Of a stretch of DNA of 64,000 nucleotides, positions 9,768-40,026 are shown one piece after another. The position numbers were made by a program, and so were the translations under genes. The first letter of the stretch is position 1; each line of letters starts with the position of its first letter. The stretch covers positions 248,001-312,000 of the forward strand of contig JAHBVL010000001.1 of the NCBI GenBank assembly GCA_019637585.1, in the 5' to 3' direction. The notes under the pieces were generated by a model that was not told the origin of the DNA, ran no database searches, and saw only the letters and a program-made list of their open reading frames with translations. This DNA comes from Thermomicrobiales bacterium (GTDB lineage Bacteria > Chloroflexota > Chloroflexia > Thermomicrobiales > UBA6265).

Positions 9768-10119
9768 CCCTCACCCCCGGCCCCTCTCCCGACCGCGGGA
9801 GAGGGGAGTACATGGCACAGGAATCATCCCGTAGGGGCGCACGGCGAGCGCCTTCTTCTTTAGGAACTCCGCAATGGCGCGGCTTTTCCCTCACCCCCGA
9901 CCCCTCTCCCGACCGCGGCAGAGGGGAGTATGTGGAACAGGAATCAGCCGGTAGGGGCGCACGGCGTGCGTCCTCTTCTTTAGGAATTCCGCAATGGTGC
10001 GGCTTTTCCCTCCCCCGGCCCCTCTCCCGGGCGCAAACGTCCCTCACCCCCGGGGCCCCTCTCCCGACCGCCAATATCCCTCACCCCCAACCCCTCTCCC
10101 GACCGCGGGAGAGGGGGGC
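9768..10119 (+). repeat. Cluster of REP-like repeats including a 120-bp tandem duplication
   Basis: Family A copies lie at 9768-9806, 9888-9926, about 10010-10035, 10041-10071 and 10078-10117. The segment starting about 9816 (AGGAATCATCCCGTAGG) recurs 120 bp later at 9936 (AGGAATCAGCCGGTAGG), together with GGGGCGCACGGCG and TAGGAA.TCCGCAATGG. A composite unit has therefore duplicated in tandem. The whole 9519-10276 gap holds only these repeats and a CGCCTCTTCGCC-like minisatellite (10146-10200); no gene is seen. Confidence 0.75.
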
Positions 10120-12684: not shown

Positions 12685-12714
12685 GAGCAACCACCTTTCT
12701 GAACAACCGGCAGG

Positions 12715-13770: not shown

Positions 13771-13983
13771 TTCCCCCTACCTCCATCAGCTGATCCGTCC
13801 CTCGCGGCACGAGGGGTTCCATTTTGCCACGATCCCGGCCGGAACGCTGACGCTATGGCGAAAAGATGAGGGCAACGGCGCCATACATGGCGAGGCTACG
13901 CGTCGGTCTGGGGTTGCGCTGGTGCTGGAGGCGCCATGAATGTCGAGGCCATGCATCGTTTGGGCACCGGGGGCATGACGCCA

Positions 13984-14781
13984 CTACGGACGCAGCAGAC
14001 CGGCGCCTTCGTCTTCAATGCGAGAGAGGGCTTCAGTGGCGGCGGCTTCTTCGGCAGCTCGCTTGCTGGCGCCCCCCCCCGTGGCCAGCACCACGCCATC
14101 GAAACGAACCTCGACGGTGAACTGGCGAGCGTGGGCCGGGCCTTCCGCGTGGATGGTGCGATAGGAGGGAGCGCGCTGGTGGAGGTTCTGGGTGATCTCC
14201 TGCAGGCGCCCTTTGGGATTGGCCGTGTCGACACTGGTCAGCACGGTGGCGATGTCCCGTTTCAACTGCCGATTGAAGAATGAACGGGCTACTGTGACGC
14301 CGCGATCGAGGAAGATGGCGCCGATCAGCGCTTCATAGGCGCCAGCCAGAATGCGGTCGCGCCCGCTGACCGATCCCCGCTCGCCGGGAGCCAGGTACAT
14401 GAAGGTGTCGAGCTCGATCTCCTGCGCCCAGGCCGCCAGTTGTTCGGTTCGGACTAGCGCCGACCGGCGCCGGGTCAACACCCCCTCTGGTTCCTCCGGA
14501 AAGCGCCGGAAGAGCTCTTCGGCGGCAAATGCACCGAGGAGAGCGTCGCCGAGAAACTCGAGCCGCTCGTTCGATTCGTCGGAGGTGCGATCGTCGCCGA
14601 ACGAGAGACCGACCGCCGAGCGGTGGGTCAGCGCGGCGCGATAGATCTCCAGATCGTGTCCCTTCAGATCGAGTGCCGCGAGCAGTCGGGCGGGATTGGA
14701 TGCCGGCGAAGCGGAGGACGCCTCGGCTGGTATCTCAGCGGCGGCAGCTGCGGCGGTCGATCGGGAGGAGCGGCGGGGCAT
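13984..14781 (-). CDS. rnc: Ribonuclease III
   Basis: 265 residues. An alanine-rich N-terminal extension of about 30 residues precedes the catalytic domain with ERLEFLGDA (72-80) and the second acidic cluster DRILAGAYEALIGAIFLD. The C-terminal double-stranded-RNA-binding domain has KGRLQEITQ...PSYRTIHAEGPAH and ASKRAAEEAAATEAL. It processes rRNA precursors and other duplex RNA. The gene contains a run of nine G (complement of 14072-14080) in the last domain, a frameshift-prone spot. The stop of the upstream hypothetical gene is seven bases away. Confidence 0.96.
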   Translation of the reverse strand: MPRRSSRSTAAAAAAEIPAEASSASPASNPARLLAALDLKGHDLEIYRAALTHRSAVGLSFGDDRTSDESNERLEFLGDALLGAFAAEELFRRFPEEPEGVLTRRRSALVRTEQLAAWAQEIELDTFMYLAPGERGSVSGRDRILAGAYEALIGAIFLDRGVTVARSFFNRQLKRDIATVLTSVDTANPKGRLQEITQNLHQRAPSYRTIHAEGPAHARQFTVEVRFDGVVLATGGGASKRAAEEAAATEALSRIEDEGAGLLRP

Positions 14782-21311: not shown

Positions 21312-21584
21312 CTACTGGGTTGTGATGAGCGAAAGGCCCTCGAAGTCTCGCACGATTCTGCTCCGGTCTCCGATCATTTGCATGGCGTATCCCTGTTCGG
21401 TGTTGGTGCTGTAGATGAGCACTGCGCTGCCGTCCCGCATGCCGTCGACGATCTTTTCCCACAACCGATCGCGGACCATCGCCGACACCCGGCCGACGAA
21501 CACACCCGCTTTGACTTCGATCAGCCATTTGGTCAGTTCGCCGCGGGCGCTTGGCGATACCCGTTCGAGAATCAGCACGATCAT
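21312..21584 (-). CDS. cas2: CRISPR-associated endonuclease Cas2, type I-E
   Basis: 90 residues from the ATG at 21584, which overlaps the cas1 stop (ATGA). The start MIVLILERVSPSARGELTKWLIEVKAGVF is typical of I-E Cas2 (CasT), with LWEKIVDGMRDGSAVLIYST in the middle. Cas2 dimers bridge two Cas1 dimers in the spacer-integration complex. A longer open frame to 21650 is a shadow inside cas1. Confidence 0.96.
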   Translation of the reverse strand: MIVLILERVSPSARGELTKWLIEVKAGVFVGRVSAMVRDRLWEKIVDGMRDGSAVLIYSTNTEQGYAMQMIGDRSRIVRDFEGLSLITTQ

Positions 21585-22522
21585 GCTTCTTCCTCCGAAT
21601 GGGCCGCGTAGTTCTCGCCGCCCGGTACGATACCAAGGGTGGGGTCCCACAGTCCTCCGGGAGCGGCCAGTTCGGAATCGATCCGCGCTTCTTCGTCCGC
21701 AATTGAGACGCTCAGCACCCGATCGATATCGTCGACGATCCGGGAGAGCAACCGCTGTTCGTGAAAGAGGTCGCGGCAGCGCAGGCGCACCCGCCGTTCG
21801 AGGTCGTCTGGATTGTCGGCCACTGCATCGAAAGCCGCCGGAATCGTGATCTCGACTTTGTAGAGATCGGCGATATCATAGACAAAGCTAAGCATCTTGC
21901 CGGTGTGCACGAACCCGAGCGCGGTCGAGTATCCCGCCGCCACGATCGCCGCCTGACAAATGCCGTACAGGGTGCTGTTCGCCGCCGAAAGCGCTCGATT
22001 GATCGGGTCGGCCTCTTTCCAACTCGTTCTCTTGTAGGAGCGCCCCGTCCACTCAACACCGGTTTCGCGGCTCTTCCTGGCATAGGTGTCCCGAATTCGC
22101 ACCCCTTCCATGCCGCGCACCTGTTGCAGCGAGAGTCCTTCGGGCAGTTGCTCGGCGAAACGGACGCGGTACATGTTGAACACCACGTCCAGGCGCTTCA
22201 CCGGATCAGCCCAGAGCATTGCCTGCTTCAACAATCGCCGCGACGACCGCGTTTCCCCCAATCCCTGGGCGTAAAACCGGACGCCCTGCTCGCCGGTCCA
22301 GAAGACGAGGCAGCCGGCTTCGGCCAGGGACCGCATGGCCGCGTGAGAAACGGTCGTGCCCGGACCGAGCATCAGGACCATCAGCGAGGTGCACGGCACC
22401 GGTGTCTTCCCCTGCGCATCGTAAATGGCGATCGCCTTGGCCTCCTGCTCGATCTTGGCGTGATCGACGTAGAGGTAGCTCCAGCTATCACGGATCTTGG
22501 GCAGGATATGGAGGTCCTCCAT
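21581..22522 (-). CDS. cas1: CRISPR-associated integrase Cas1, type I-E
   Basis: 313 residues. It shows the I-E form DSWSYLYVDHAKIEQEAKAIAIYD, MVLMLGPGTTVSHAAMRSLAEAGCLVFWTGEQG, the catalytic region RALSAANSTLYGICQAAIV (metal-binding glutamate/asparagine area) and LGFVHTGKMLSFVYDIADLYK with the conserved histidine and aspartate. It cuts and joins spacers at the leader-repeat junction. The start ATG is three bases after the cas6e stop. Confidence 0.97.
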   Translation of the reverse strand: MEDLHILPKIRDSWSYLYVDHAKIEQEAKAIAIYDAQGKTPVPCTSLMVLMLGPGTTVSHAAMRSLAEAGCLVFWTGEQGVRFYAQGLGETRSSRRLLKQAMLWADPVKRLDVVFNMYRVRFAEQLPEGLSLQQVRGMEGVRIRDTYARKSRETGVEWTGRSYKRTSWKEADPINRALSAANSTLYGICQAAIVAAGYSTALGFVHTGKMLSFVYDIADLYKVEITIPAAFDAVADNPDDLERRVRLRCRDLFHEQRLLSRIVDDIDRVLSVSIADEEARIDSELAAPGGLWDPTLGIVPGGENYAAHSEEEA

Positions 22523-22525
22523 GGG

Positions 22526-23227
22526 TCATGTCCTGACCGGGGCGATGGAGAGGAGGCCGAATCCGTAGGCTTTGCCCGGTCCGATGCCGGAGATGAGGGC
22601 GGCGCGGAATTGGTCGGGGTCGGTGACCGTCAGCAGTCCCTCGAAAACAGCTGCCTGAAATGTCAGCGGTCGGTCGGGGTACTCCTTCCTGCCGGTTTGC
22701 CTGGCGCCCAGGCGATCCCCCTTGTGAATCTCGAGCTGGTCGACGCGAAAACCATGCTGCTCACCCTTGCGCTCCAGCCAATGCTTCTGCTCGCCCTCGC
22801 CAAAGAGCTGAACACGCTTGCCGATCATGTCATCGGCGATGCCATTTCGTGGTTTGAGCACGCGCCGTGTTGGGTTGGCCCGCAACCGAAAGCGAAGTTG
22901 GTCGTCCACGGTCAGTCTCTTGTAGACAGCACCGATGTCCTTCACCGCTGGATTGATGCCCCCCAAGTCATCGACCAGATAGCCAGCCGGCAGGACGTTC
23001 CAATTCGGTTCCTGCTCCGACTGAACGAGCATCACCGGCTGTCGCTGCTGGTGGTCGGCGGCTTCGAGGCGATAGAGAATGCCGAATTCAGCGCGAGGCG
23101 CGTCGCCCATCGCCGTCGGGAACGCTTTCATGATCCTCTGGTGCAGCGCGTGGCAATTGGCCAGATCGCGCTGGACGTCGTAATCCATTGGGTCGAGCAC
23201 GAGGCGCGAGAGAAATGTGTCAGACAT
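22526..23227 (-). CDS. cas6e: crRNA-processing endoribonuclease Cas6e
   Basis: 233 residues from the ATG at 23227, preceded by AGGAGAGG; it overlaps the end of cas5 by eight bases. The start MSDTFLSRLVLDP and the N-terminal histidine (CHALHQRIMKAFP) fit Cas6e/CasE, as does the glycine-rich C-terminal loop LISGIGPGKAYGFGLLSI. It binds the repeat hairpin, cuts just 3' of the stem and stays bound as part of Cascade. Confidence 0.95.
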   Translation of the reverse strand: MSDTFLSRLVLDPMDYDVQRDLANCHALHQRIMKAFPTAMGDAPRAEFGILYRLEAADHQQRQPVMLVQSEQEPNWNVLPAGYLVDDLGGINPAVKDIGAVYKRLTVDDQLRFRLRANPTRRVLKPRNGIADDMIGKRVQLFGEGEQKHWLERKGEQHGFRVDQLEIHKGDRLGARQTGRKEYPDRPLTFQAAVFEGLLTVTDPDQFRAALISGIGPGKAYGFGLLSIAPVRT

Positions 23228-23948
23228 CTTCAACCTCTCCTATGGGCACCTTGTCTGTTCCATCACCGATGTCGCAAAAGTCGGTCTTGACGTAGCGAGG
23301 AAGGTACTGACGGGTGAGAAACGCCGCGCCACTTGCCGGTTGATCGATCCTGCGCTCAGCTCCTTGCTGTGGCGACACCTCGATCACGAACCGCAGTCGT
23401 TCTGACCACTCGGCTGGAGCTTTCTTGAACTGGTCGGCCTGCTTCTGCGTCGGATTCCATGGATGTTCCCGAAGCGCGGTGCACAGATCACAGTCTGTGC
23501 GAATCCCCTCGTGTTTCGGCAAAGCAATGGGCCGGCCGGGAACAAATGACTTGCGTCCAAGAAAGAGCTGCCATTGCGGATCATCAAGCGCCTGCTCGAT
23601 CTGGATAAGCAGCGAGTCACCCGGCGCCTCCAATCCGACCAGAAAATCGGCATCGGCCAGGTAGTAGCGATTGGAAAGCACTGTCCCGGTTCTGCGTCCG
23701 TCGACGCGCACGGTGGTTCCCAGCGTGTGATAGTCACGGCGAACCGCTCCTTCCCGGTTCACACGCACACCCATCCGGAGTGCGCTCAAGTCATCGACCG
23801 AAGCGTCACGTGGTCTCCCCATGGCGGCACAGATGAGACCAATCACGCCGCTTTTCGACGGCTCAAGACCAGTGTCTCGCTCGCCGAAACGGCTTTGTGT
23901 CCCCCACGATTGCATCGGCCCTGCCAAACGCAGCAGCAGAGTCGCCAT
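23220..23948 (-). CDS. cas5: Cascade subunit Cas5e
   Basis: 242 residues from the ATG at 23948 (CGGAG upstream); an upstream in-frame codon at 23975 lies inside cas7. It has LLRLAGPMQSWGTQSRFGERDTGLEPSKSGVIGLI, the standard CasD start, and the thumb region DYHTLGTTVRVDGR. It caps the 5' handle of the crRNA in Cascade and contacts Cse1. The ATG follows the cas7 stop by one base. Confidence 0.95.
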   Translation of the reverse strand: MATLLLRLAGPMQSWGTQSRFGERDTGLEPSKSGVIGLICAAMGRPRDASVDDLSALRMGVRVNREGAVRRDYHTLGTTVRVDGRRTGTVLSNRYYLADADFLVGLEAPGDSLLIQIEQALDDPQWQLFLGRKSFVPGRPIALPKHEGIRTDCDLCTALREHPWNPTQKQADQFKKAPAEWSERLRFVIEVSPQQGAERRIDQPASGAAFLTRQYLPRYVKTDFCDIGDGTDKVPIGEVEDV

Positions 23949-23949
23949 C

Positions 23950-25107
23950 TCAGGCTCCGGCGCCTGATGCGGCAAACGACGACGACACCGTTGCGCCCAT
24001 CAGATCGTCCACTGAATCCAGTTTCGAACTCTTGAGAGCAACGATTCCATCGCCATACATCGAATCGGTGACCACGCGCGCGCCGACGATCTGTTTCGTG
24101 CCGTACATTGATGTCAGACGGCCCCAATAGCTATCAAGCTCGCGAACGGAAGATGCCACCAGATCACCATCGGCGGATGGCCTGACTGGTTTGACAAACG
24201 CGTTGGCAAGAGACCATTGTCCACGTTTCCGGACGACAGCCAACACGAGCGAAGGCGGATTCTGTGCCGCAAAGCTATTCTGCTTTCCAGTTGGCACTGC
24301 GGCTATGAAGGCGGACAGAAATGCGGAGAGCGAGCGACTTGCGAGATCGTCATCGCCATCGAGGTTTTTCGTCAGTTGGCCGATGTCGATGTTCGCATAT
24401 CGATAGAAGCAGGAAGAGTTGAACTCAACGGTGCCGAGCATGCCTGCACCGGTGTCATCTTCGTCTGATGGGCGATCGTCGACCGCAGTGAAGAAGTCGA
24501 ACTCGGCGGTGAGCTGATTCGTAGAGATCGCGTGGGCTACCTGGCAGGCCGCGTCACGATTGAGTCCTGGTGCGTCGGCGATCATTCGTCCAAAGAGCGC
24601 CAGGTCCGCCGCTTTTCGGCCATTCAGCGCCTCTTTCAGTTGATCCGAAATCTCTTTCGGCAGCGCTTCTTTGGCTTTCTTCTTGCTCGCCGCTGCGTCG
24701 GTTTGCATGCCAATGAGCGTGTCCCAGTTCTTCTCGCACACGTCGACGATCCGATCGATCTCATCATTGCCCAGGAAGAGCAAGTACTGGGTTTCTCCTT
24801 TGTCCAGCTTGAGACCAGCACCGGGAACGACGGCCTCGGCGACGCGCAATGCCTCATCGAAATCGCGCTCTCGCAATTTGAGTCGCTCCGCAACGGCCCG
24901 CGTCAGCCGTTTGGTCCGCTCGGCGCGATGTTCGGCCGGCAACAACTCATCGTCCTTGAATGCCATTCGCACTGCGCGTTTCTGACACTGGCTGGAGATT
25001 CGGGCACGACGGTATCCCCCAAACTCGCAGTCTTTGGGCGATCCAGTGTCGTCACGATTCAAATTCGAGGGAGCGAAATTCTGGAGGAGATGGAGCTCGA
25101 CGATCAT
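23950..25107 (-). CDS. cas7: Cascade backbone subunit Cas7e
   Basis: 385 residues. MIVELHLLQNFAPSNLNRDDTGSPKDCEFGGYRRARISSQCQKR... is the CasC/Cse4 N-terminus. Six copies form the Cascade backbone and force every sixth guide base out of pairing. GAAAGGACCATC just upstream provides a ribosome-binding site. It is separated from cse2 by 92 bp, the only noticeable gap in the operon. Confidence 0.96.
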   Translation of the reverse strand: MIVELHLLQNFAPSNLNRDDTGSPKDCEFGGYRRARISSQCQKRAVRMAFKDDELLPAEHRAERTKRLTRAVAERLKLRERDFDEALRVAEAVVPGAGLKLDKGETQYLLFLGNDEIDRIVDVCEKNWDTLIGMQTDAAASKKKAKEALPKEISDQLKEALNGRKAADLALFGRMIADAPGLNRDAACQVAHAISTNQLTAEFDFFTAVDDRPSDEDDTGAGMLGTVEFNSSCFYRYANIDIGQLTKNLDGDDDLASRSLSAFLSAFIAAVPTGKQNSFAAQNPPSLVLAVVRKRGQWSLANAFVKPVRPSADGDLVASSVRELDSYWGRLTSMYGTKQIVGARVVTDSMYGDGIVALKSSKLDSVDDLMGATVSSSFAASGAGA

Positions 25108-25199: not shown

Positions 25200-25901
25200 T
25201 CACTCATCGGCCATTTCTTCATCCTCACCTTCTTCCGTGGCGGGAGCAGCGCCACCCGAGCCTGTCTCTTCTCGCCAAAAATCCCTTGCCCATCTGAGCT
25301 GGACATGCCGATCCGGGTGATCCCATTGACGCAAGTCTTCCGCGAGCTGTTTCCAGTCCACCGGGATGCTGTTCCCCTCCAGCATCTGGACGACTCCCCG
25401 GAGCTGGGGCGGGAGATCCTCGAACGAGCTGTCCAACAGAGCCATCAGCCGCCGTTCGACACCGGACCGTCCCTGGCGCTGCGGTGCCGCATCGGGAGCA
25501 ACCTCGTCGTCATCCTGATCAGATGCGTCTTCGGAAGCGGTTCGCTCACTCCCTCGTTCCAGGCGCCGCAGCGATTCTCCGAAACTCTGATGGCCCTTTG
25601 GCAAATCGCCGGGTGTAAATGGATGGGGGTAGCTGCCGAACAGGGTGGCGACCAGATGCGCTACCGCTTCATCTCGCTTCGATAGCCGCTCGCTGCCCAA
25701 CATGGGAACGAGCACCGGCAACACTTCGATCGCTTCACCCGGTTTCTTGCCGAGCCCGCGTCGCAGCGCCGCGAGTCTGGCTCGGCTGACTGATCGCATG
25801 AAGTTGCTCTGCTCGGACTCCTCGCGGGGCGCCAGCGCCGCAAGATGCCGAATCAATAAAGGAACGTCCAGTTCTGCATACTCTTTCGCGGTGGCGGTCA
25901 T
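25200..25901 (-). CDS. cse2: Cascade small subunit Cse2
   Basis: 233 residues from the ATG at 25901, which overlaps the cse1 stop by four bases. Features of CasB are the all-helical fold, LAALRRGLGKKPGEA and VAHLVATLFGSYPHPF. A long acidic insertion (about residues 125-150, with DASDQDDDEV) and an acidic C-terminus (EEGEDEEMADE) are larger than in E. coli, whose protein is about 160 residues. Two copies stabilise the R-loop. Confidence 0.92.
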   Translation of the reverse strand: MTATAKEYAELDVPLLIRHLAALAPREESEQSNFMRSVSRARLAALRRGLGKKPGEAIEVLPVLVPMLGSERLSKRDEAVAHLVATLFGSYPHPFTPGDLPKGHQSFGESLRRLERGSERTASEDASDQDDDEVAPDAAPQRQGRSGVERRLMALLDSSFEDLPPQLRGVVQMLEGNSIPVDWKQLAEDLRQWDHPDRHVQLRWARDFWREETGSGGAAPATEEGEDEEMADE

Positions 25902-27586
25902 GCTGCTTCCTCCTCCTTCTTCTCCTCGATGCCCAGGCTCTTGATGTAACGGCGAGTTACCCAATTCAGCTGGCTGTTGAAACGATCCTGCGCCGGCGCG
26001 ACTGCACGCAGGGTTTCGCTCTCCCGGCCCAATGCAGCGACCGATTCATCAAATACCCGTTGAGCGGTTTTCCTGACGTGCTCGGCCCATTGGCCCAAGC
26101 GACGCACACGGGCGTCGTCCAGATCAGGGTTGTCGGGATTCCCGTACTTCTCAGGCGGATGCACGAGTTCTACGATCAGTTCGCGAAATGGTCCTTCCAG
26201 TCGCGGCCAGAAGCGGCGCTCCATCCCCAGCGACTCGATGAGATTGGCTACCGTCGCTTTGTCGACTGTTTCACCCGGGCTGGGCAGCAACCGTTCCGCC
26301 AGGAGCTGCAAAGGGCGTTGATAGGTCGTGCCGTCCCTGCCGGTTCGGCTCCCGGCGGTAAAGAGGAATCCGACACGGATGTTGGCGAATTCGAGCGCAT
26401 CGGCCAGATCGGCGGTCAGCTCGGGATCCGTCAGGTAGTCGATGGGAAGATCGAATCGCTCGGCTCGCCAGAGGATCTTCAGCGCCCGGTCGCTCAACAT
26501 GCCCAGAACATCCGCCTGCAGCACACCCGGCACCATGTCTTCATGAGACTCCGCGATCTCAGCGATCCAGCTCGCGGTTTGCGGACGGGCGACGCCACGT
26601 GCTGAGCTCATTTGGCAGAGCGACGTGAAGTCACGCCAGAGCGCCCGATTTGTGTCGAACCTGACCGGCAGATGCGCAGGCTCGCCCTGCTTTGCACCCT
26701 TGTTCGGGCGAAATGCGACCATTTGCTCATAGCCGATCCGCGTCGAAGGGTCTTTCAGCTGCTCTCCCTTCATCAGGACAACCGACTTCACAACCCAGCG
26801 GCCATCGATCATTTCCGGTTCCGAGAGAAGCAGCCGCCGGCTCTGCCACGTCAGCCAATCGGCGCAACCCGCGGGGCGCAAACGGTCCCTGGCAGTTGTT
26901 GGCTCATCCCGCTCCCAGGCCGGCTGATCGTCGTCGTACGAATCGAACGGAAAGCCGTTGGCGTGGTCGTAGCGCGCGAGGTTGAGCATCAATGTCTCGA
27001 AGAGCGACGTACCGCGAAGCAGGACCAGGGCGCTGTTGGCCAGCGGCGCACCGTCCGCCGATCGATCGTTGGGATTGTCGAAACTCACCAGACCGCCGAG
27101 CGCGAACGCCTGCATTGCGACTAATGCGCGTGCCGCCGCCGCTTCGGAAATGCCGTGGTTTTCACCGCGCAAGGTGTTGTCGAACGCACTGGCGTCGAGC
27201 TCGGGAAGGAGCTTGGCGGACCGCCACGGATCCTTTGTGGTGATGCCGGGTGTTTGATAGAAGGGGTGGGTCGGATGGAAAAGATCGAATCGCTCTTTCC
27301 ATTCATCGAGATAGGCTTCGATCTTCGGCCATTTCGAGAACGAACCGCTCTGCCAGAGATCAACCCACGCCTCCTGATCTGCCGGTCCGTTGAGTGACCG
27401 ATGCAGAATCGCCAGCAGCAGGCGATGCAGGGAGCCTGTCACCAATGGCGACGGATCGTAGATTTCCTGCAGTTCCTCCGAGTGCGCCAGCACATCGCGA
27501 AGGCCAAGCAACTCGATTTCGCTATTGGTGCCTTTCTTTCGTACGCACGGTATCCATGGCGCGTCGACGAGATTGAATGACGCCAC
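25898..27586 (-). CDS. cse1: Cascade large subunit Cse1 (Cas8e)
   Basis: 562 residues starting with GTG and overlapping the cas3 stop by one base. MASFNLVDAPWIPC and the segment HPFYQTPGI, together with GENHGISEAAAARALVAMQAF, identify CasA. It recognises the PAM in double-stranded DNA and recruits Cas3. The C-terminal four-helix bundle region ends EEKKEEEAA. Confidence 0.95.
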   Translation of the reverse strand: MASFNLVDAPWIPCVRKKGTNSEIELLGLRDVLAHSEELQEIYDPSPLVTGSLHRLLLAILHRSLNGPADQEAWVDLWQSGSFSKWPKIEAYLDEWKERFDLFHPTHPFYQTPGITTKDPWRSAKLLPELDASAFDNTLRGENHGISEAAAARALVAMQAFALGGLVSFDNPNDRSADGAPLANSALVLLRGTSLFETLMLNLARYDHANGFPFDSYDDDQPAWERDEPTTARDRLRPAGCADWLTWQSRRLLLSEPEMIDGRWVVKSVVLMKGEQLKDPSTRIGYEQMVAFRPNKGAKQGEPAHLPVRFDTNRALWRDFTSLCQMSSARGVARPQTASWIAEIAESHEDMVPGVLQADVLGMLSDRALKILWRAERFDLPIDYLTDPELTADLADALEFANIRVGFLFTAGSRTGRDGTTYQRPLQLLAERLLPSPGETVDKATVANLIESLGMERRFWPRLEGPFRELIVELVHPPEKYGNPDNPDLDDARVRRLGQWAEHVRKTAQRVFDESVAALGRESETLRAVAPAQDRFNSQLNWVTRRYIKSLGIEEKKEEEAA

Positions 27587-30339
27587 TAGTCCTCGCCTCC
27601 TTTCATCCCTGCCTGCAAATCTTCAAAGAGCACGCCAAGTTCCTCATCCAACTTGAGATAGATCGATGACTCGGCAACACCGTTCTCCGGCCGGTAGCCC
27701 ACCGGATAGGCATGTGCCAGAAGGGGCGACGACTTCCACCCTGCTGGCACTTTCAGTTCTTTGAGCAACGGCGCAACTCGCCGTTTGCCACTGACCTTGA
27801 CGCTTGCCTTGAGCAGGGCGCGCGCCTGCTCCAATCCCGGCGTATCTCCCCTTCGGAACACCGACCGATCATCCGGATTCAGTGCCCGGCCGTCGTTGTC
27901 GAGTGGAAGGAACACGAGCTGAATGGATGGTTCGGCGAGACGGGTCAGCGCCTGGAATCTGGTGTGTCGCTCAGGATCGTCTTCCACCAGTTCGCCATTA
28001 CAGAGATCCGCCGGATGGGCGCGAATCCACGGCGACCGAATCCACCTCAAGGTGGCCTCGCTTTGCTCCTCATCTCTTGCCGCGACCTGCGCCCGATGCG
28101 TCTCCTCGAGCCGCGGGGCAAGTGCGGCCGGCCAATCGTCGAGTGGACCGGGATCGTTGCCGTATACGGCCTCGACCATGTCCGCGATATCTCCTGGCAT
28201 GGCGATGCGGGAGCGGTTCCGGAGCTGCATCCACGAGCGGAGCAGAATGTGGTGGTCGTAGACCCACCCGAAGGAACCCGTCAGATCGGGCAGTCCGTCC
28301 TTCTCCGGAGGACCGACGATCCAGAGTTGTGGCGACCACAGACCTGCCGGTCGTCTCGTGCGCTGATGCCGGTGCAACCGACCCATCCGCTGCAAGACAA
28401 GATCGGCCGGCGCCATTTGTGTCACCATCAGGTCAAAGTCGAGGTCCAGCGACTGTTCGACGACTTGCGTGGCAACCACGACTCGCCGGTTTGCAAACGG
28501 GCGTTCATCGTCGGGAGTACTCGGCTTGCCGAAGGTGTCGATGACTTGCTTTTCTCTGTCGCCGCGAGCTTTGGAGGTGAACCGAGCGTGGTACAGGATG
28601 AGCTCTTCACGCGAAAAGTGATTGCGCAACGCGAGATAGGTTGCTTGCGCTTGCGTGACGGTGTTACAGATCACTGCCGCGCAGCTTCCCGGACTGAGCG
28701 CGGCAGCGAGCTCAGCGCCAAGCTTCGCCTGCCACTCGTCCGAAGCGACAATCCAGCGCAGGTCGACGGTCTTGTTTGCCAGCGACGACGGCGTGATCGA
28801 GACCGAGTCAATTGTGTCTCCTGACACCCAGGAGACTGATGGGTAACTCGCCAGCTTGGGAAGCTCTGTGTTCTCTTGCTTCAAACGAAAGGCATTGAGG
28901 AGGGTCTCGCGTCGCGCCGAGGGGAGCGTGGCTGAGAGGAGCACAACCGAGCAGCCGAGAGCGGCCAGCCATTCGATCAACCGCTCGAGAAGGGTCGACA
29001 TGTAGGTGTCGTAGGCATGCACTTCGTCGATGATGACCGTCTTGCCAGCCAGACCAAAGAGCCGGACGAAGACGTGCCGCGTCTGCAACACGGCCAGTAG
29101 TGCTTGATCGATAGTGCCTACGCCCTCTTCCGCGAGCAATTGCCGTTTTCCACCCGCGAACCAGCTTGCGGCCAGTACGGTCGGGGATACATCGTGCCGG
29201 CTCCAATACTCCGGTTCAGCATCATGAATGTGGAGATGAGAGAGGAACGAGGCATACGCATCAGTCAGATCGATGAATTCGTCTGACAGCGCGGATTGCC
29301 CATGCAGCAGCTGCAGATTCGTCGAACGCCCATCCCCTCGCTGCTCCAGGAGCTTGGTCCGGCGAGTGAGCATCTGATTGCTCGTGGCCTGCGTCGGCAA
29401 GGCGACATACGTCCCGGCGAGTCCCAGGCGCGCCTCTCCGTCGTCGGCAATGAAGAACGCGGCTTCGGTCTTGCCCTCGCCCATCGGCGCTTCGATGATG
29501 GCCATCCAGGGTTGCGATTGCTCACCGGCAACCCGCTCGACCGTCATCTGCAGGTCGTTTGGCGTCTCGATGTTCGGGAAGAGCTCACGAAATGAGCGAG
29601 GCATCCGGCGTCGTGTGCGAGTCAGCCAGCCGAGTTCTTCCAGTGCGGTTCGAGCACGGCTTCGCGCGCGATCTCGATGTTCTTCTATGGCGAAATCGCC
29701 AGGAACGTTGTCCTTCTCGCCGACAAACAAGAAGTAATCGGCATTGGAACCAATCCAGTCCGCAACCGAAATGAAGCCAGCCAGCCACAGCACCGCTGGT
29801 GCAGGGACCCTCGCTGGTTTGTCGCCCGGCATACCACTGATGGCGAGGATGATCTCCTGAAAGCGTCGCTGACCCTCGCACGTTTTGCCCCGGCATTGCG
29901 AGCGGCGATTGTCTCTTGCCTGGTTGACGCTGCCCGGTTCTGGAAAGCGTCCATGATGACCACCGGCAATGACCGCGAGGTTGGTGGCAATCGAGAGGTC
30001 AAGTCCGAACGGCTCCTCCCGAAGCGTTCTTCTGAGTATTGCCGCCGATACGGTGCCGTGCGGATCGGCATTGAGCAGACGATCCTGGAATCCCGGGCAG
30101 TACTTGCCGATGTCGTGCCATCCCGCCAGCAACACGACCCACGATCGCGCTGCGTGCACACTCACCCCAAGCTGCGATGCAAACCACTCCTGCCCCCGCT
30201 CGGTGATCACCTCGTCCCACATCACCGCCGCCACCTGGGCAACGTCGATGAGATGACAGATCAGCGGATGAAAGGTCTTGTCATCCTTCTCGCGGGACTT
30301 CTTGGCCCAGACACGCAACTCGTCTCCGGTGAGCGTCAC
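27586..30339 (-). CDS. cas3: CRISPR-associated helicase-nuclease Cas3
   Basis: 917 residues. The N-terminal HD nuclease has HPLICHLIDVA, GWHDIGKY (His75-Asp76) and GGHHGRF. The superfamily-2 helicase part has Walker A APMGEGKTEAAFF, the DEAH-type IIDEVHAYD, motif III LSATLPS and motif VI TQMAPADLVLQRMGRLHRH. It is recruited by Cascade to nick and degrade target DNA. The start is a GTG preceded by AGAGGTGATC. It is the first large gene of the operon. Confidence 0.97.
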   Translation of the reverse strand: MTLTGDELRVWAKKSREKDDKTFHPLICHLIDVAQVAAVMWDEVITERGQEWFASQLGVSVHAARSWVVLLAGWHDIGKYCPGFQDRLLNADPHGTVSAAILRRTLREEPFGLDLSIATNLAVIAGGHHGRFPEPGSVNQARDNRRSQCRGKTCEGQRRFQEIILAISGMPGDKPARVPAPAVLWLAGFISVADWIGSNADYFLFVGEKDNVPGDFAIEEHRDRARSRARTALEELGWLTRTRRRMPRSFRELFPNIETPNDLQMTVERVAGEQSQPWMAIIEAPMGEGKTEAAFFIADDGEARLGLAGTYVALPTQATSNQMLTRRTKLLEQRGDGRSTNLQLLHGQSALSDEFIDLTDAYASFLSHLHIHDAEPEYWSRHDVSPTVLAASWFAGGKRQLLAEEGVGTIDQALLAVLQTRHVFVRLFGLAGKTVIIDEVHAYDTYMSTLLERLIEWLAALGCSVVLLSATLPSARRETLLNAFRLKQENTELPKLASYPSVSWVSGDTIDSVSITPSSLANKTVDLRWIVASDEWQAKLGAELAAALSPGSCAAVICNTVTQAQATYLALRNHFSREELILYHARFTSKARGDREKQVIDTFGKPSTPDDERPFANRRVVVATQVVEQSLDLDFDLMVTQMAPADLVLQRMGRLHRHQRTRRPAGLWSPQLWIVGPPEKDGLPDLTGSFGWVYDHHILLRSWMQLRNRSRIAMPGDIADMVEAVYGNDPGPLDDWPAALAPRLEETHRAQVAARDEEQSEATLRWIRSPWIRAHPADLCNGELVEDDPERHTRFQALTRLAEPSIQLVFLPLDNDGRALNPDDRSVFRRGDTPGLEQARALLKASVKVSGKRRVAPLLKELKVPAGWKSSPLLAHAYPVGYRPENGVAESSIYLKLDEELGVLFEDLQAGMKGGED

Positions 30340-30640: not shown

Positions 30641-30671
30641 AGACGTTTCTCGACGTCTCTTTAAGAAGAGA
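30641..30671 (-). promoter_or_regulatory. Two overlapping inverted repeats in the cas leader
   Basis: AGACGT-TTCTCG-ACGTCT (30641-30658) touches the start codon of the small acidic gene, and TCTCTT-TAAG-AAGAGA (30656-30671) overlaps the end of the proximal -10 element. They could form RNA hairpins or bind a repressor. Confidence 0.4.
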
Positions 30672-30721
30672 TTATAGCTTTACTGATACTGTATGATACA
30701 AGCACCGCTTCGCACTGTCAA
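30671..30721 (-). promoter_or_regulatory. cas operon promoter region with two -10 elements
   Basis: On the minus strand TTGACA (30721-30716), 17 bp, then TATCAT (30698-30693) form a near-consensus sigma-70 promoter. A perfect TATAAT lies at 30676-30671, with weak -35 candidates (GTATCA at 17 bp). Immediately upstream of the latter is AAG (30680-30678), and the bases 30677-30664 match the guide of the mini-array. There is nothing comparable elsewhere in the operon. Confidence 0.75.
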
Positions 30722-30860
30722 CATCTTCGGGTGATACGTTTTGACGAAAGGCAAGACCAATGGATCTATCGAGCTATTAGTACGCAGGATATATTATCAC
30801 CGTAGATATGTAATCCGCGATGAGTCATCCAAGAGTCCGTCGAAAGCGAAGTCGACTAGT

Positions 30861-30869
30861 TGCTAGAAT
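30861..30869 (+). promoter_or_regulatory. Extended -10 promoter for the mini-array
   Basis: TGCTAGAAT is a TGn-TAGAAT extended -10 element without a good -35. The predicted start, about seven bases downstream, falls at the very beginning of the first degenerate repeat (30876). Confidence 0.5.
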
Positions 30870-30875
30870 GTTGAC

Positions 30876-30964
30876 GGTCCTCAGCGCCTTCTGGGGGTGA
30901 ACCACTATAGTCTCTGCTGTTTTGCAAGAGAGAGGCTTTGTCCCCACATGCGTGGGGGTGAACT
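30876..30964 (+). ncRNA. CreR-like crRNA: degenerate two-repeat mini-array divergent from the cas operon
   Basis: A first degenerate repeat (30876-30903) keeps only the 3' half of the array repeat (TGGGGGTGAACC). It regains a stem by different bases, CCTCAG with CTGGGG around loop CGCCTT, so the hairpin and handle needed by Cas6e remain. The spacer is 30904-30936, exactly 33 nt. The second repeat (30937-30964) matches the array repeat at 25 of 28 positions. After its first base the guide reads CTATAGTCTCTGCT; the cas promoter strand reads AAG then CTATAATCTCTTCT (30677-30664). Mismatches are at guide positions 6 and 12 only, then pairing stops. The repeat and guide structure is read directly. 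Repression of the cas operon is inferred from known crRNA-like regulators. Confidence 0.85.
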
Positions 30965-31190
30965 GACGCAGAGCCGGATCGTGCACGAGTGCGATCCGGC
31001 ATCTCCATGTTCGGGTTGCACCTCGACAAGTCGAGCCAAACCACATGCTCCTTCCATCCACAGAATAGAACGGCCGTGCTACTCTGTCAATGCTCGTTTC
31101 CGCGCGCCGTCGAACGGCCAGGTCCCGACCTATCAATGGTGCTGGCCCGTTCAAATGCTTTTGGTAGATTCGGCTCGGAGGGACCAAGCC

Positions 31191-31613
31191 ATGCACACCA
31201 CCAACTACTTCGACGCTTTCATCGCCGTCGCGGCGGACTCGACGGCCACCGCGCCCACGGAACCTCCATACAAGGAAGAGAGCCCGTCGATTGCCTGGCG
31301 GACGTGGCGGATGATCGCGGCGGCGCCATATGCGCACACGTCGGACGATGTCATCTTTGGGGTTTGGGCCGATCGGCGGGATATCCCCGCCGCCGATCGT
31401 GAAGCGGCCCGGGCCGAGTTCTTCAGCAAGGGTCAAGCCTGCCTGAGGGCGAGTGATCTCGGCAAACGCTACGGCTGGGGTGTCCACTCCGACGCCGAGG
31501 GCCGCGTCGCGCTGGTGGGCGTTGGCACGCCGGAGTATGACGCCTTTGCCGCCGGCTTAACCCCCGATGGTCAGTCGGTGATGGTCACGCGGGCGATGAA
31601 GTCGAAGCGGTAG
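31191..31613 (+). CDS. DUF6157 family protein
   Basis: 140 residues from the ATG at 31191; the frame is open further upstream, where it crosses the mini-array and cannot be coding. MHTTNYFDAFIAVAADS, WRMIAAAPYAHTSDDVIFGVWA and GKRYGWGVHSDAEGRVAL are the conserved blocks of this small family of unknown function. It is probably cytoplasmic. It lies 227 bp downstream of the mini-array in the same direction, so read-through is possible. Confidence 0.75.
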   Translation: MHTTNYFDAFIAVAADSTATAPTEPPYKEESPSIAWRTWRMIAAAPYAHTSDDVIFGVWADRRDIPAADREAARAEFFSKGQACLRASDLGKRYGWGVHSDAEGRVALVGVGTPEYDAFAAGLTPDGQSVMVTRAMKSKR

Positions 31614-32720: not shown

Positions 32721-32775
32721 GGATCGTATCGCTCCCGATGGATCGTGGGACGTTGGGCGGGATTGTAGCAATGAC

Positions 32776-32825
32776 GGGCAAAGGGCAAACGGCAAAGGGC
32801 AAAGGGCAAAGGGCAAAGGGCAAAG
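32776..32825. repeat. GGGCAAA heptamer minisatellite
   Basis: About seven to eight units of GGGCAAA with minor changes (one has AAACGGCAAAG). Similar stretches occur near 31690-31725, 33828-33850, 40036-40090 and 48790-48830. Confidence 0.85.
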
Positions 32826-32901
32826 GAACGATAGCCCGCCAACCACCCTCTGTGTGCTCCTGTCGACCGCTGACCGCTTCGAACCGAACCACGATAGGTC
32901 G

Positions 32902-33343: not shown

Positions 33344-33810
33344 CTCAGTCCACGATCAATTCCGACACCACGCTCGTGATCGAGCGCACATTCGACGCTT
33401 CGCCAGCGTTCCTGTTCAACGCCTTCACCGATCCAGCCATCCTCGAACAATGGTGGGGTCCGCATGGTTTCGCCACTCGCGGCTGGGAGATCGATCTCCA
33501 GGTCGGCGGGGCGTTTCGGTACGAGATGTATGAAATCGCCTCGGACAAGGGGCATTGGGTGAGCGGCATCTACACGGCGATCGAGCCGAATCGCCGGCTG
33601 ACGACGACCGCGAGTATCGAATGGGGCGCCGATTCGGAGCTGGAAGACGTCACCGGCATGACCATCGATGTCCAGTTCATCCCCGAAGGCGACAAAACCC
33701 GCATCGTCGGCACCCAAACCGGTCTGCCCGCTGCCAGCTGGGTCGACGGCGCGACGGAAGGATGGTCGCAGCAGTTCGAGAAGCTGGGAGTGCTGCTTGC
33801 GCGGCACTAG
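33340..33810 (+). CDS. SRPBCC/AHSA1 domain protein
   Basis: 156 residues. The START-like fold is indicated by LVIERTFDASPAFLFNAFTDPAILEQWWGP, the mid-strand VGGAFRYEMYE, and the C-terminal helix VDGATEGWSQQFEKLGVLLA. Such proteins bind hydrophobic ligands or act as small chaperone-like factors. It is translationally coupled to the ArsR gene. A fragment of its 3' end is repeated at 34993-35115. Confidence 0.9.
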   Translation: MTQSTINSDTTLVIERTFDASPAFLFNAFTDPAILEQWWGPHGFATRGWEIDLQVGGAFRYEMYEIASDKGHWVSGIYTAIEPNRRLTTTASIEWGADSELEDVTGMTIDVQFIPEGDKTRIVGTQTGLPAASWVDGATEGWSQQFEKLGVLLARH

Positions 33811-34067
33811 GCACTGGGCACTGGGAGATGGGCAAAGGGCAAAAGGCAAAGGGGCCCACGAACCGCGGATTTTCTGGAAGACCTCCTGTTGAATCGCCCG
33901 TGCTCACCGCACAACGGTCCTGCGAACCTGGGTGATGAGCACGATCACCGCCGCGGAGCCTCGCTGTTTGTGGTGCCCGACTCGTTGGGTTGTTCACACA
34001 TTGTCAGCAAACACACCAGTCGTTCCGAACGCGCCGTGACCGCGCGGACGATGATGATGCTCGGTTG
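33811..34067. other. Intergenic region after the SRPBCC gene
   Basis: It begins with GGCACTGGGCACTGGGA and GGGCAAAGGGCAAAAGGC minisatellites (33811-33850). The rest shows no gene or clear signal. Confidence 0.5.
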
Positions 34068-36029: not shown

Positions 36030-37259
36030 ATGCATCCAGATCGGATCGTCGAGGGATTTCAGGTCAGCGAGCTAACGAATGAAAACTACCAAGAGTACTT
36101 TCAGCTGCTGCGATCGAAAGATCAGTTTGAAGTACTGCCACATTCGATCGAGAATGGTTCCGTGGTCGGACCAACGCCTACTCAATTTACGTTCATCGAC
36201 CTCTTCGCGGGAATAGGTGGAATCCGACTTGCGTTTGAAAAGGCTGGTGGCCAGTGTGTGTTCACCAGCGAATGGAATCCTTGGGCCCGAAAGACGTACG
36301 AAGCTAACTTTGGGATCGAGGATACGTTCTTCGGCGACATCGTGGCGATTTCGGACGCCGACATACCAGACCACGACGTACTCTTGGCAGGGTTTCCCTG
36401 TCAGCCATTCAGCATTGCCGGTGTTTCGAAGAAGAATGCACTCGGCGTGCCTCATGGGTTCGAGTGTACGACACAAGGGACATTATTCTTTGAGATTCAG
36501 AGAATTATTGCGGCGAAACAACCGAAGGCATTCCTCTTGGAGAATGTCAAGAATCTTCTGAGCCACGACGGCGGGAACACATTTCGCGTAATTCGCCACG
36601 TACTGAAAGAGGAGTTGGGATATAACCTCTTCGTCGATGTACTTGACGCAAAGCCATTCGTTCCTCAGCATCGCGAAAGAATCATTATCATCGGCTTCAA
36701 GGACCATGAAGTTAACTTTGACTTCGGCGCGATGAATTTGCCTTCGCAGAGTCCGACACTCACAACCGTTTTGCACAGTGAAGACGGTTCAGAGGCCGAA
36801 GAGCGGCCCTATACTCTCGGAGCCCAAGCAAAGGTCAATCCAAAATACGTTCTGAGTGACAGGCTTTGGAGTTACCTGCAGGCGTATGCCGAAAAGCACA
36901 AAGCCGCGGGCAACGGGTTCGGATACGGACTAGTGACTAAAGACGATACAACCCGAACGCTTTCTGCACGATACTATAAGGATGGTTCGGAGATACTTGT
37001 ATCACGGGGCTCTCGGAGAAATCCCCGAAGATTGACCCCACGAGAGTGCGCTCGTTTGATGGGTTTTCCGAAAGACTTTGTGATTCCCGTTTCTGACACA
37101 CAGGCCTACAAGCAGTTTGGCAACTCAGTTGTAGTCCCATTGATGGATGAAGTCGCACGAGTGATGGTCTCGCAGATGCTCGGTCTTGAATCGGTCAGCA
37201 ATCGAGCGGCCAACGATGTCGTGTCTTTCGTCCGAGTTCAGGAATGCCTGACGTTGTAG
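36030..37259 (+). CDS. DNA (cytosine-5) methyltransferase of an EcoRII/Dcm-like system
   Basis: 409 residues. It methylates C5 of cytosine, protecting the cell's own DNA. Motif [17 protein letters not shown], the catalytic [11 protein letters not shown] (Cys124), [18 protein letters not shown] and the C-terminal [11 protein letters not shown] are all present in order. Its neighbours, a Vsr nuclease and an EcoRII-like endonuclease, suggest a CCWGG target. An N-terminal extension of about 52 residues precedes motif I. The next gene overlaps it by 16 bases. Confidence 0.96.
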
Positions 37260-37708
37260 ACGCTCAGACCCGCAGCCGAATGATGGCAGGGATCAGAGCG
37301 CGCGATACGAAACCTGAATTGCAGATCCGTCGATTGCTGCATAGAGAGGGGTTTCGATATCGCTTGCACGTTAGGACTCTTCCGGGCCACCCGGATTTGG
37401 TCCTGCCAAAGTACAACGCCGTGGTTTTCGTGAATGGCTGCTTCTGGCACGGTCACGATTGCCACTTGTTCAAATGGCCGAAATCGCGCGCTGATTGGTG
37501 GCGATCCAAGATCGAGCGCAATCGAGCCAACGACCAACGATGCCTTGACGCACTGGTCACAAAGGACTGGCGTGTAGCGACCGTCTGGGAGTGCTCGCTA
37601 AAAGGCAGACAGAAGCTCGCAATTGATGACGTGGTTGGCATGTTAATCGAGTGGTTGGTGAATTCGGCTGACCAGACACTAGAAGTGAAAGGCAAGGCAA
37701 ATGAATAA
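37244..37708 (+). CDS. vsr: Very short patch repair endonuclease
   Basis: 154 residues. It nicks beside T:G mismatches that arise when 5-methylcytosine deaminates. [24 protein letters not shown], the active-site region [26 protein letters not shown] and [13 protein letters not shown] are diagnostic. It sits between the methyltransferase and the endonuclease with overlapping frames on both sides. Confidence 0.97.
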
Positions 37709-38921
37709 AGGATCGCTTGCTGATTACTTCACGGGGGTGGCGGCGAAACGCCTAAGCGCAGTTGAAGCCGATCCCGGCACTTCCAACCAACACGAGTTCA
37801 ACGGTGTTGCCGATTTAAGGAGGATACTAGGAACTCCGGATCAGGTTCGTAGATTCCCAGCAAAGCTAGTTTACTTGTCAGACAACGACCCGGATCCAGT
37901 TGTCGAAGACGCCGACCTTACCTGGTACGACTCACGGAGAAATCAGCCCAAGAGAAGCCCGGAGTGGCGCCTTTACTTTCCCGGTACGAGCGTCACGAGC
38001 TGCGCTTCTCCGGGTGATCTACTGGTTCTCGGAAGACGCCCGGATGACACGATTCTGCTAGTCATTGCCGGCGCTGAATCGACGGTTGCCAACCAACTCC
38101 TATGGTTATTTAACCTTGAGGAAATTGATGGGCATCCGGGATTCTCAGTTAGAGAGGAACTCGAATCTGAGCATGATCGACTCAATCTGACTTCACGCGT
38201 GCTATTGGAATCGCTGGGAATCGTAGTTGAAGTCTCGGAAGAGTCTTACCTTGACAGAATCCTCGAGAGCTTTCCAGATGGACTTCCGACAACTGAGGAG
38301 TTTTCTGCTTTTGCCCGAGAGGCCGCAGGCGAGATGGACGTCAGTAACGAACCCGACGTAACTCTCGTGGCTTGGATGGACAAGGAAGAGATTCTCTTCA
38401 GGACCTTCGAGCACCATCTGATCCTTGACCGGCTGAACGCAGGATTTGACGAGGACGTAGATGGGTTCATGCAGTTTTCGTTGTCGGTTCAGAACCGACG
38501 AAAGAGTCGTGTTGGCAATGCTTTCGAGCATCACGTGGCTGCTGTATTCGAGAATCTCGGGGTTCTGTTCTCACGTCGCCAAGTTACCGAAAACAGATCC
38601 CGTCCTGACTTTCTGTTTCCTGGGGTCGACATGTACAGAGATCCAGCTTTTCCGCAGCATCGACTCACAATGTTGGGGGCCAAATCAACGTGCAAGGATC
38701 GGTGGAGACAAGTCCTTTCCGAAGCGAATAGGATACCGCGGAAGCACCTGCTGACATTGGAGCCGGCCATTAGCCAGAACCAAACCGACCAAATGATTGC
38801 CAATGGTTTGCAGCTTGTTGTACCCAACTCGTTGAAAGCAACATACACTCAGGGTCAGCAGGATTGGCTCATGGATCTTCAGAGCTTCATTAGTTTGGTC
38901 AAGGAACGCCAACAATGCTGA
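37701..38921 (+). CDS. EcoRII-type restriction endonuclease
   Basis: 406 residues, the same size as EcoRII. The N-terminal part (about 1-170) corresponds to the effector-binding domain. The C-terminal catalytic domain has RKSRVGNAFEHHVAAVFE, SRPDFLFPG and LGAKSTCKDRWRQVLSEA, which carries the PD-(D/E)XK lysine and the EcoRII-specific TCKDRWRQV. Enzymes of this type need two CCWGG sites for cutting. It overlaps vsr by eight bases, giving a compact methyltransferase-repair-nuclease operon. Confidence 0.95.
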   Translation: MNKGSLADYFTGVAAKRLSAVEADPGTSNQHEFNGVADLRRILGTPDQVRRFPAKLVYLSDNDPDPVVEDADLTWYDSRRNQPKRSPEWRLYFPGTSVTSCASPGDLLVLGRRPDDTILLVIAGAESTVANQLLWLFNLEEIDGHPGFSVREELESEHDRLNLTSRVLLESLGIVVEVSEESYLDRILESFPDGLPTTEEFSAFAREAAGEMDVSNEPDVTLVAWMDKEEILFRTFEHHLILDRLNAGFDEDVDGFMQFSLSVQNRRKSRVGNAFEHHVAAVFENLGVLFSRRQVTENRSRPDFLFPGVDMYRDPAFPQHRLTMLGAKSTCKDRWRQVLSEANRIPRKHLLTLEPAISQNQTDQMIANGLQLVVPNSLKATYTQGQQDWLMDLQSFISLVKERQQC

Positions 38922-38973: not shown

Positions 38974-40026
38974 CTACCCCACTCCCCCCACCCGACCACC
39001 CCCCGCATAGACATTGAACCGCTCGCCCCGCAAGAACCCCACAAGGGTCATGCCGAAGCGCTGAGCGAGGTCGACGGCGAGGCTGCTGGGGGCGGAGACG
39101 GCGCAGAGAATGGGGATGCCGGCGGCCAGGGCTTTTTGGGCGATTTCGAAACTGCTCCGGCCGCTCACCATCAGGACGGCGTCGGAGAGCGGCAGGCGGT
39201 TTTCGAGCAGCGACCAGCCGATCACCTTGTCGACGGCGTTGTGCCGGCCGACATCTTCGCGGACGGCGATCATTTCGCCCGCCGGGGTGAAGAGCGCGGC
39301 GGCGTGCAATCCGCCGGTCGTGGAAAAGAGTCCCTGCGCTTCTCTCAGGGCGCCGGGCAAGCTGGTGATCGTGCGCCAGTCGACGGTTGGGCCGGGGGCA
39401 AGTGGCGGAATGCCTCGTCGCTCGATCTGGTCGAGCTGTTCCTTGCCGCAAATTCCGCAGGCGGAGGTCATGGTGAAGTTGCGGATTGGTGAGTCGGCAA
39501 GTCGGCCAGACGGTGAGTCGGCGAGTCGGCGAGACGGCAAGTCGGCAAGTCGTCCCTCACCCCCCGCCCCTCTCCCGACCGCGGGAGAGGGGGGATGGTC
39601 GTCTTCTTTCTTGCCGTCTGGCCGTCTTCCCGTCTCGCCGACTTCGTCCTGGCCGTCTGGCCGTCTGGCCGTCTCGCCGACTTCGTTCTTGCCGTCTTCC
39701 CGTCTTCCCGTCTTCCCGTCTTCGTCCTGGCCTCTCATCACGACGGTCACAATGTTGTGCCGCTGCTCGGCGTCGTCGCAATCGAGGCAATACTCGATCC
39801 GGGCGATCTGCCGGCGTGATTCGATGAGTCCCTCGGCAAAGAGGAATCCGGCGGCCAGCTCGAAATCGGCTCCGGGGGTGCGCATGGTGACGGCGATGGG
39901 CCGGGTCTGCCCACCCACTCGCATGCGGATTTCCATCGGTTCTTCCGTGGCCAGGAGATCGATGCGGGACGTGCTCCGGCCCGCGTCGATCGACCGCATG
40001 CGGACGCGGGTTTGGCCGGTTTTCAT
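38974..40026 (-). CDS. fdhD: Formate dehydrogenase accessory sulfurtransferase FdhD with a repeat-derived insertion
   Basis: 350 residues from the ATG at 40026. FdhD carries sulfur to the molybdenum cofactor of formate dehydrogenases. Normal parts are ATEEPMEIRMRVGGQ, TPGADFELAAGFLFAEGLI, the cysteine pair TSACGICGKE (Cys190, Cys193), REDVGRHNAVDKVIGW and SGRSSFEIAQKA. Between about residues 101 and 182 lies an insert absent from the family. It encodes repeated GRREDGK/GRRPDG units, then PPSPAVGRGAGGEG (the antisense reading of repeat family A), then RLADSPSGRLADSP repeats. Removing it leaves about 268 residues, the usual size. The frame is kept and both catalytic halves are intact. Confidence 0.93.
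   Translation of the reverse strand: MKTGQTRVRMRSIDAGRSTSRIDLLATEEPMEIRMRVGGQTRPIAVTMRTPGADFELAAGFLFAEGLIESRRQIARIEYCLDCDDAEQRHNIVTVVMRGQDEDGKTGRREDGKNEVGETARRPDGQDEVGETGRRPDGKKEDDHPPSPAVGRGAGGEGRLADLPSRRLADSPSGRLADSPIRNFTMTSACGICGKEQLDQIERRGIPPLAPGPTVDWRTITSLPGALREAQGLFSTTGGLHAAALFTPAGEMIAVREDVGRHNAVDKVIGWSLLENRLPLSDAVLMVSGRSSFEIAQKALAAGIPILCAVSAPSSLAVDLAQRFGMTLVGFLRGERFNVYAGGGRVGGVG
39481..39726. repeat. Repeat block inserted in frame within fdhD
   Basis: It contains a complete family A hairpin unit (39554-39594), flanked by short direct repeats: GTCGGCAAGTCGGCCAGACG-like on one side and TCTGGCCGTCTTCCCGTC-like on the other. The block is a multiple of three in effect, because the fdhD frame is open through it. 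Confidence 0.85.

Follow-up and report, generated by a model that had tools for sequence, protein, structure and literature searches.

A divergent mini-array beside a Chloroflexota type I-E cas operon as a candidate CreR-type autorepressor

The window, i.e., the whole 64,000-nt stretch of Chloroflexota DNA analyzed here, carries a type I-E effector operon that is complete by Pfam assignment and lies on the minus strand. A mini-array of two repeats and a single spacer lies on the plus strand and reads away from this operon (Table 1), separately from the main CRISPR array. What does a complete cas operon use such a mini-array for? A sequence-only reading of the same DNA had proposed that its RNA leads Cascade back to the cas promoter. 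Here, we examine the mini-array, its match at the cas promoter, its counterparts in other type I-E loci and the competing explanations.

The mini-array and its surroundings

The mini-array consists of a degenerate repeat (psiR1), a spacer of exactly 33 nt (30904-30936) and a better preserved second repeat (psiR2). These elements, the degree of identity of psiR2 and the orientation divergent from the operon were all as the sequence-only reading had described them. The psiR1 sequence (GGTCCTCAGCGCCTTCTGGGGGTGAACC) is identical to the main repeat at only 16 of 28 positions; nevertheless, its final 11 nt are those of the main repeat, and its stem is restored through compensating bases around a 6-nt loop. 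Folded alone, psiR1 was predicted to prefer an alternative structure (-11.3 versus -7.7 kcal/mol), and its processing may therefore be weak. The stem of psiR2 is intact and one of its handle bases, the last, is altered. From start to start, the two repeats are 61 nt apart, which is also the period of the main array. The same division, with the first repeat giving rise to the 5' handle and the second to the 3' hairpin, has been described for creA genes (PMC8501985).

Table 1. Coordinates of the features discussed, given as positions within the 64,000-nt window
Feature	Position	Strand	Remarks
Main CRISPR array	18459-21292	-	47 repeats of 28 nt, spacers mostly 33 nt; downstream of the operon
cas2	21312-21650	-	PF09707
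cas1	21581-22522	-	PF01867
cas6e	22526-23233	-	PF08798
cas5	23220-23975	-	PF09704
cas7	23950-25107	-	PF09344
cse2 (cas11)	25200-25964	-	PF09485
cse1 (cas8e)	25898-27586	-	PF09481
cas3	27586-30339	-	Cas3_HD, Cas3-like_C_2, Cas3_C
ORF, 81 aa	30395-30640	-	First ORF in the cas transcript; no family assigned
Seed target CTATAATCTCTTCT, protospacer positions 1-14	30664-30677	-	At the expected cas transcription start; contains a secondary TATAAT
PAM AAG of the CreR-like target	30678-30680	-	
-10 TATCAT, probable cas promoter	30693-30698	-	Consensus match
-35 TTGACA, probable cas promoter	30716-30721	-	Consensus match
Probable mini-array promoter, TCGAAA-18-TAGAAT, TG preceding the -10	30840-30869	+	Consensus match 9/12
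psiR1, degenerate repeat	30876-30903	+	5' handle GTGAACC(A); stem CCTCAG/CTGGGG
Guide CTATAGTCTCTGCTGTTTTGCAAGAGAGAGGC	30905-30936	+	
psiR2, repeat	30937-30964	+	25/28 to the leader-proximal repeat type; supplies the crRNA 3' hairpin
Strong hairpin GCCGGATCG...CGATCCGGC after psiR2	30973-31000	+	z -3.25; possible transcript 3' end

In the main array, 41 of the 47 spacers begin with G, as expected if the final base of the PAM is retained in the repeat. The first spacer base of the mini-array was likewise taken as a handle base in the sequence-only reading, and this assignment stands, leaving A 30904 as the handle base and a 32-nt guide; that the base is A, whereas G is usual, counts against the proposal. 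The hairpin that follows psiR2 is devoid of a T run, and a search of the region against Rfam returned no match. Immediately 3' of the mini-array, a gene encoding a DUF6157 protein (31158-31613) lies on the plus strand.

The main array itself contains two versions of the repeat, with the loop GTGC in the leader-proximal part and GCAC in the distal part, and switches between them near position 19705; its repeats at the trailer end are variably degenerate, and some of its spacers measure 32 or 34 nt. The CRISPR locus adjoins a restriction-modification cluster (36030-38921) that encodes a C5 cytosine methylase, a Vsr endonuclease and a protein bearing an EcoRII C-terminal domain. Tandem repeats with short units of 7 or 8 bases (GGCAAAG, GGCGAGTC and similar) were observed at 32749-32840, 33803-33866 and 39472-39732, partly inside predicted ORFs.

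The guide and its match at the cas promoter

Re-alignment showed that guide positions 1-5, 7-11 and 13-14 correspond to the minus strand from 30677 to 30664, directly after AAG, which amounts to a match at 12 of 12 paired positions. Within positions 1-14 the mismatches fall at 6 and 12 only, and beyond position 14 just 2 of 18 positions match, which does not exceed chance. Both the match at 12 of 14 positions after AAG (30680-30678) and the loss of pairing from position 15 had been pointed out in the sequence-only reading, which judged by eye that such a pattern was improbable by chance. Shuffling bore out this judgment: in the 316-bp promoter region, with no PAM required, a run of 12 was not attained by any of 20,000 shuffled guides, and three reached a run of 11. 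The best of the 47 real spacers of the main array attained a run of 7 there, so that none of them matched equally well.

A scan of the whole genome had been suggested as a check; across its 3.94 Mb, the seed pattern CTATANTCTCTNCT, in which positions 6 and 12 are N, was present solely at the guide and the target. The guide itself had no match elsewhere in its own genome. A perfect match to a phage or plasmid would have spoken for an immune spacer; no match was found among 2.9 million viral contigs, searched exactly with the full length and the first 21 nt of the guide, and none above chance among phages and plasmids. A search for relatives by DNA similarity returned array repeats only and no orthologous guide.

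The top sigma-70 match toward the cas genes is TTGACA-17-TATCAT (30721-30693), which agrees with the consensus at 11 of 12 positions. The AAG PAM begins 12 nt past TATCAT, and the guide site thus falls at the expected transcription start and not on the -10 element. The sequence-only reading had placed the target over a perfect TATAAT. This hexamer is indeed present within the target (30676-30671), but as a -10 element it ranked second to TATCAT, since its -35 element is poor (GTATCA or TTGTAT). Judged by these consensus matches, the -10 of the cas promoter is likely the upstream TATCAT rather than TATAAT.

Recurrence and pairing profile in other Chloroflexota loci

Other type I-E loci were sampled from 24 genomes of the class and from further genomes of the phylum in which a Cse1 relative is encoded. 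We screened 39 regions upstream of cas3 for repeat-like hairpins that precede a handle, and then sought a PAM-flanked match to the guide nearby. The 39 loci contained 45 repeat-like elements, many of which belong to a true array in locus L056, and 5 of the 45 yielded guide-PAM-target runs of at least 11 paired positions, namely, 12 in the window, 16 in L043, 14 in L047, 11 in L081 and 13 in L086. In 200 shuffled sets, the expectation for a run of 10 was 0.01 and none was longer. Allowing one or two mismatches added L056, with a run of 8 and one mismatch next to it (11/12), L041, with 11 of 12 paired seed positions, and L088, which at 10/12 is the weakest of the eight loci and was kept as a weak case.

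All eight loci, the window included, have psiR1 and psiR2 upstream of cas3, separated by a spacer of equal length (32-nt guide), and their guides are mutually unrelated in sequence. At AAG sites, these guides matched 10 to 12 of 12 positions in their own cas upstream region versus 9 or fewer in any of the remaining 38 regions. An AAG target site is present in all seven other loci, one of which also has a stronger TAG site. As a rule, the target is situated between the mini-array and cas3; the exceptions are L081 and L088, in which it is located just upstream of the mini-array and the mini-array reads in the direction of cas. In L041 and L056, the target stands directly before cas3 with little room between. 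The promoters of these two loci resemble that of the window: TTGACA-17-TATACT is followed after 5 nt by AAG in L056, and TTGACA-17-TAGATT after 7 nt in L041, so that the order TTGACA-17-TAnnnT, 5-12 nt, AAG and protospacer is the same in all three.

Conservation of the seed-promoter match in related genomes had been named as a check, and loss of the match from a conserved mini-array as an observation that would count against the proposal. The same module, each time with its own fitting guide, was present in seven further I-E loci, and no case of such loss was seen, as even the weakest locus retains 10/12. The eight loci share a rule and not alignable sequence, and close relatives with the same guide were absent from the sample. 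Since the module recurs with different guides, each of which fits its own target, the seed match is conserved though the sequence is not. A search for relatives with a single Cse1 found nothing, and a search with an 18-member Cse1 alignment gave 80 loci and no CreR beyond the Chloroflexota cases already known; some contigs recurred in this set (L113 is L081, L120 is L043, L150 is L088 and L159 is L086).

Pooled over the eight guide-target pairs, 91 of 96 bases match at positions 1-14 without 6 and 12, a figure that is partly selected because positions 1-14 served as the search criterion, while the figures for the remaining positions are unselected. At positions 6 and 12, 4 of 16 bases match, where chance predicts 4; at positions 15-24 without 18 and 24, 31 of 64; and at positions 25-32, 8 of 64, which is below chance. 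As far as sequence can tell, this profile is the pairing footprint of Cascade, in which every sixth base is flipped out, with a full R-loop avoided. In Escherichia coli, the I-E Cascade needs no more than AAG and 5 seed bp to bind, and mismatches at the PAM-distal end keep binding and abolish interference (PMC5904413). For CreA, positions 1-5 and 7-11 are each required, and positions 6 and 12 are dispensable (PMC8501985).

Two further features of these loci were recorded. WYL-domain regulators with a WCX domain are encoded beside the modules of L043 (6727-7713) and L086 (9382-10554), and in L043 the regulator is the first gene after the target, between the target and cas3. In L056 (approximately 12100-14000), the CreR-like element has a long true CRISPR array as its neighbor; the two lie upstream of cas3, on the strand opposite to that of the cas genes.

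Proposed autorepression of the cas operon and competing explanations

In our view it is highly likely that the mini-array encodes a CreR-type RNA with which Cascade represses its own cas operon; transcription, processing and repression are predicted from the elements described above. What the proposal led one to expect turned out in its favor, namely, a match beyond chance, no viral or plasmid protospacer and recurrence in seven loci. According to the accounts of CreR in papers that cite it, it is a cas-regulating crRNA that directs the effector to the effector's own promoter and has been reported in systems of types I-B, I-E and V-A (PMC13131331, PMC12737573). Likened to those descriptions, the locus has a mini-CRISPR that adjoins the cas operon, lies outside the main array and is flanked by degenerate cognate repeats, a predicted crRNA-like RNA, a PAM and, at the promoter of the cognate cas operon, a limited seed complementarity, which is too short for cutting (2/18 after position 14; effect on Cas3 from PMC5904413), the complete set of cognate I-E effector genes and predicted autorepression by the effector. 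It differs in its host phylum, Chloroflexota, and in that its action is predicted. The assignment of the locus to CreR is thus very well supported at the sequence level, and as the kind has already been reported, the locus would be a new member of it, with a known principle, and not a new kind.

The divergent promoter would transcribe the mini-array, and Cas6e would cut after each stem to release a crRNA-like RNA of approximately 61 nt starting with GUGAACCACUAUAGUC. Cascade loaded with this RNA would bind AAG and the seed at the cas transcription start and block RNA polymerase. With the PAM-distal half left unpaired, Cas3 would not be activated and the chromosome would remain uncut. Repression would be lifted, and more Cas protein made, whenever Cascade is occupied by crRNAs of the main array or disabled by an anti-CRISPR. 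The mini-array is thus very probably a cas thermostat of the immune system, and the level of CRISPR-Cas in these bacteria is probably set by Cascade itself, so that cas expression would rise in the presence of anti-CRISPRs or large arrays. Autorepression relieved by inhibitors has a parallel in SpyCas9, an effector that, as described in a citing paper (PMC13131331), represses its own gene; SpyCas9, however, is a class 2 effector, whereas the I-E Cascade of our locus would act with a crRNA-like RNA encoded by a mini-array.

The first reading frame past the repressed promoter, which encodes 81 aa and belongs to no known family, invites a different explanation, i.e., that the RNA represses a protein toxin in the manner of CrePA (CreA with a protein toxin) and that loss of Cascade releases the toxin and not more Cas protein. 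CrePA modules share the RNA logic (PMC12737573), and repression by an RNA-guided effector is common to them and, as predicted, to our locus. However, no KilA-N-type toxin was recognized behind the target promoter: the 81-aa ORF has neither KilA-N nor another toxin domain nor a match to known toxin or regulator families, had no relatives in the 158 genomes searched from the class, and resembles the cas genes in codon-position GC, and the repressed transcript carries cas genes. Since only 55 nt separate the ORF from cas3 and a scan from 30350 revealed no promoter-like site between them, cas3 would be co-repressed, and in L041 and L056 there is little room for a toxin before cas3. With neither family nor relatives for the ORF, and cas3 close behind, we consider this explanation, which would call for a toxin of a new type, quite improbable. 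An RNA toxin between target and mini-array, held down by the mini-array RNA as in CreTA addiction, would suit the AT-rich, unannotated stretch 30700-30865, and CreTA loci adjoin cas operons (PMC8501985). CreA of this system (type I-B, haloarchaea) also resembles our element in its two divergent degenerate repeats, in the pairing of the PAM and positions 1-5 and 7-11 but not 6 and 12, and in repression without cutting, which is predicted here (PMC8501985). Yet the toxin RNA that CreA represses lies upstream of creA and in the same direction, and the promoter concerned reads creT and then creA, whereas the target promoter here is divergent, reads into cas and thus away from the mini-array, which has a promoter-like site of its own, and no toxin was seen. 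Addiction of this type is therefore extremely improbable.

Decay could also account for the mini-array, with the match being either an accident or the remnant of a dead self-targeting spacer captured by mistake. The low identity of psiR1 would fit, as would the similarity between guide and target in L043 and L047, which extends to position 24 as expected of spacers from the own locus. Against this, the seed is kept, the decay is found exactly at the unpaired positions and at the PAM-distal end, the stems are compensated, the pattern holds across eight loci and the chance level was 0 in 200 shuffled sets; we regard mere decay as highly improbable. The least probable explanation, with next to no chance of being right, is that of an ordinary immune mini-array against a phage or plasmid, which has the array architecture on its side and the searches of viral contigs, phages, plasmids and the own genome against it.

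These well-supported loci add to CreR in a phylum of mostly uncultured bacteria, and the part beyond routine is the presence of eight private guide-promoter pairs in one phylum, whose unrelated guides independently establish the pairing code from sequence alone. Moreover, such circuits can be detected by a simple scan of the region upstream of cas3 for an ectopic repeat combined with a PAM and a matching seed. The similarity up to position 24 in L043 and L047 suggests that their spacers were captured from the own locus and then decayed at the PAM-distal end. We tentatively extend this view, at somewhat less than an even chance, to the Chloroflexota I-E guides in general, which may arise repeatedly from a self-captured spacer of the cas upstream region by selected decay to a fixed positional code. 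In the code proposed, positions 1-5, 7-11 and approximately 13-17 are kept, 6 and 12 are free and 25-32 are unpaired. If true, each locus would hold a private guide-promoter pair, and the eight loci would form a series from immune spacer to regulator. In L047, two opposed target sites lie 13 bp apart (9790-9833), one at TAG with 12/12 and the other at AAG with 11/12, as if two Cascades could occupy a single cas upstream region.
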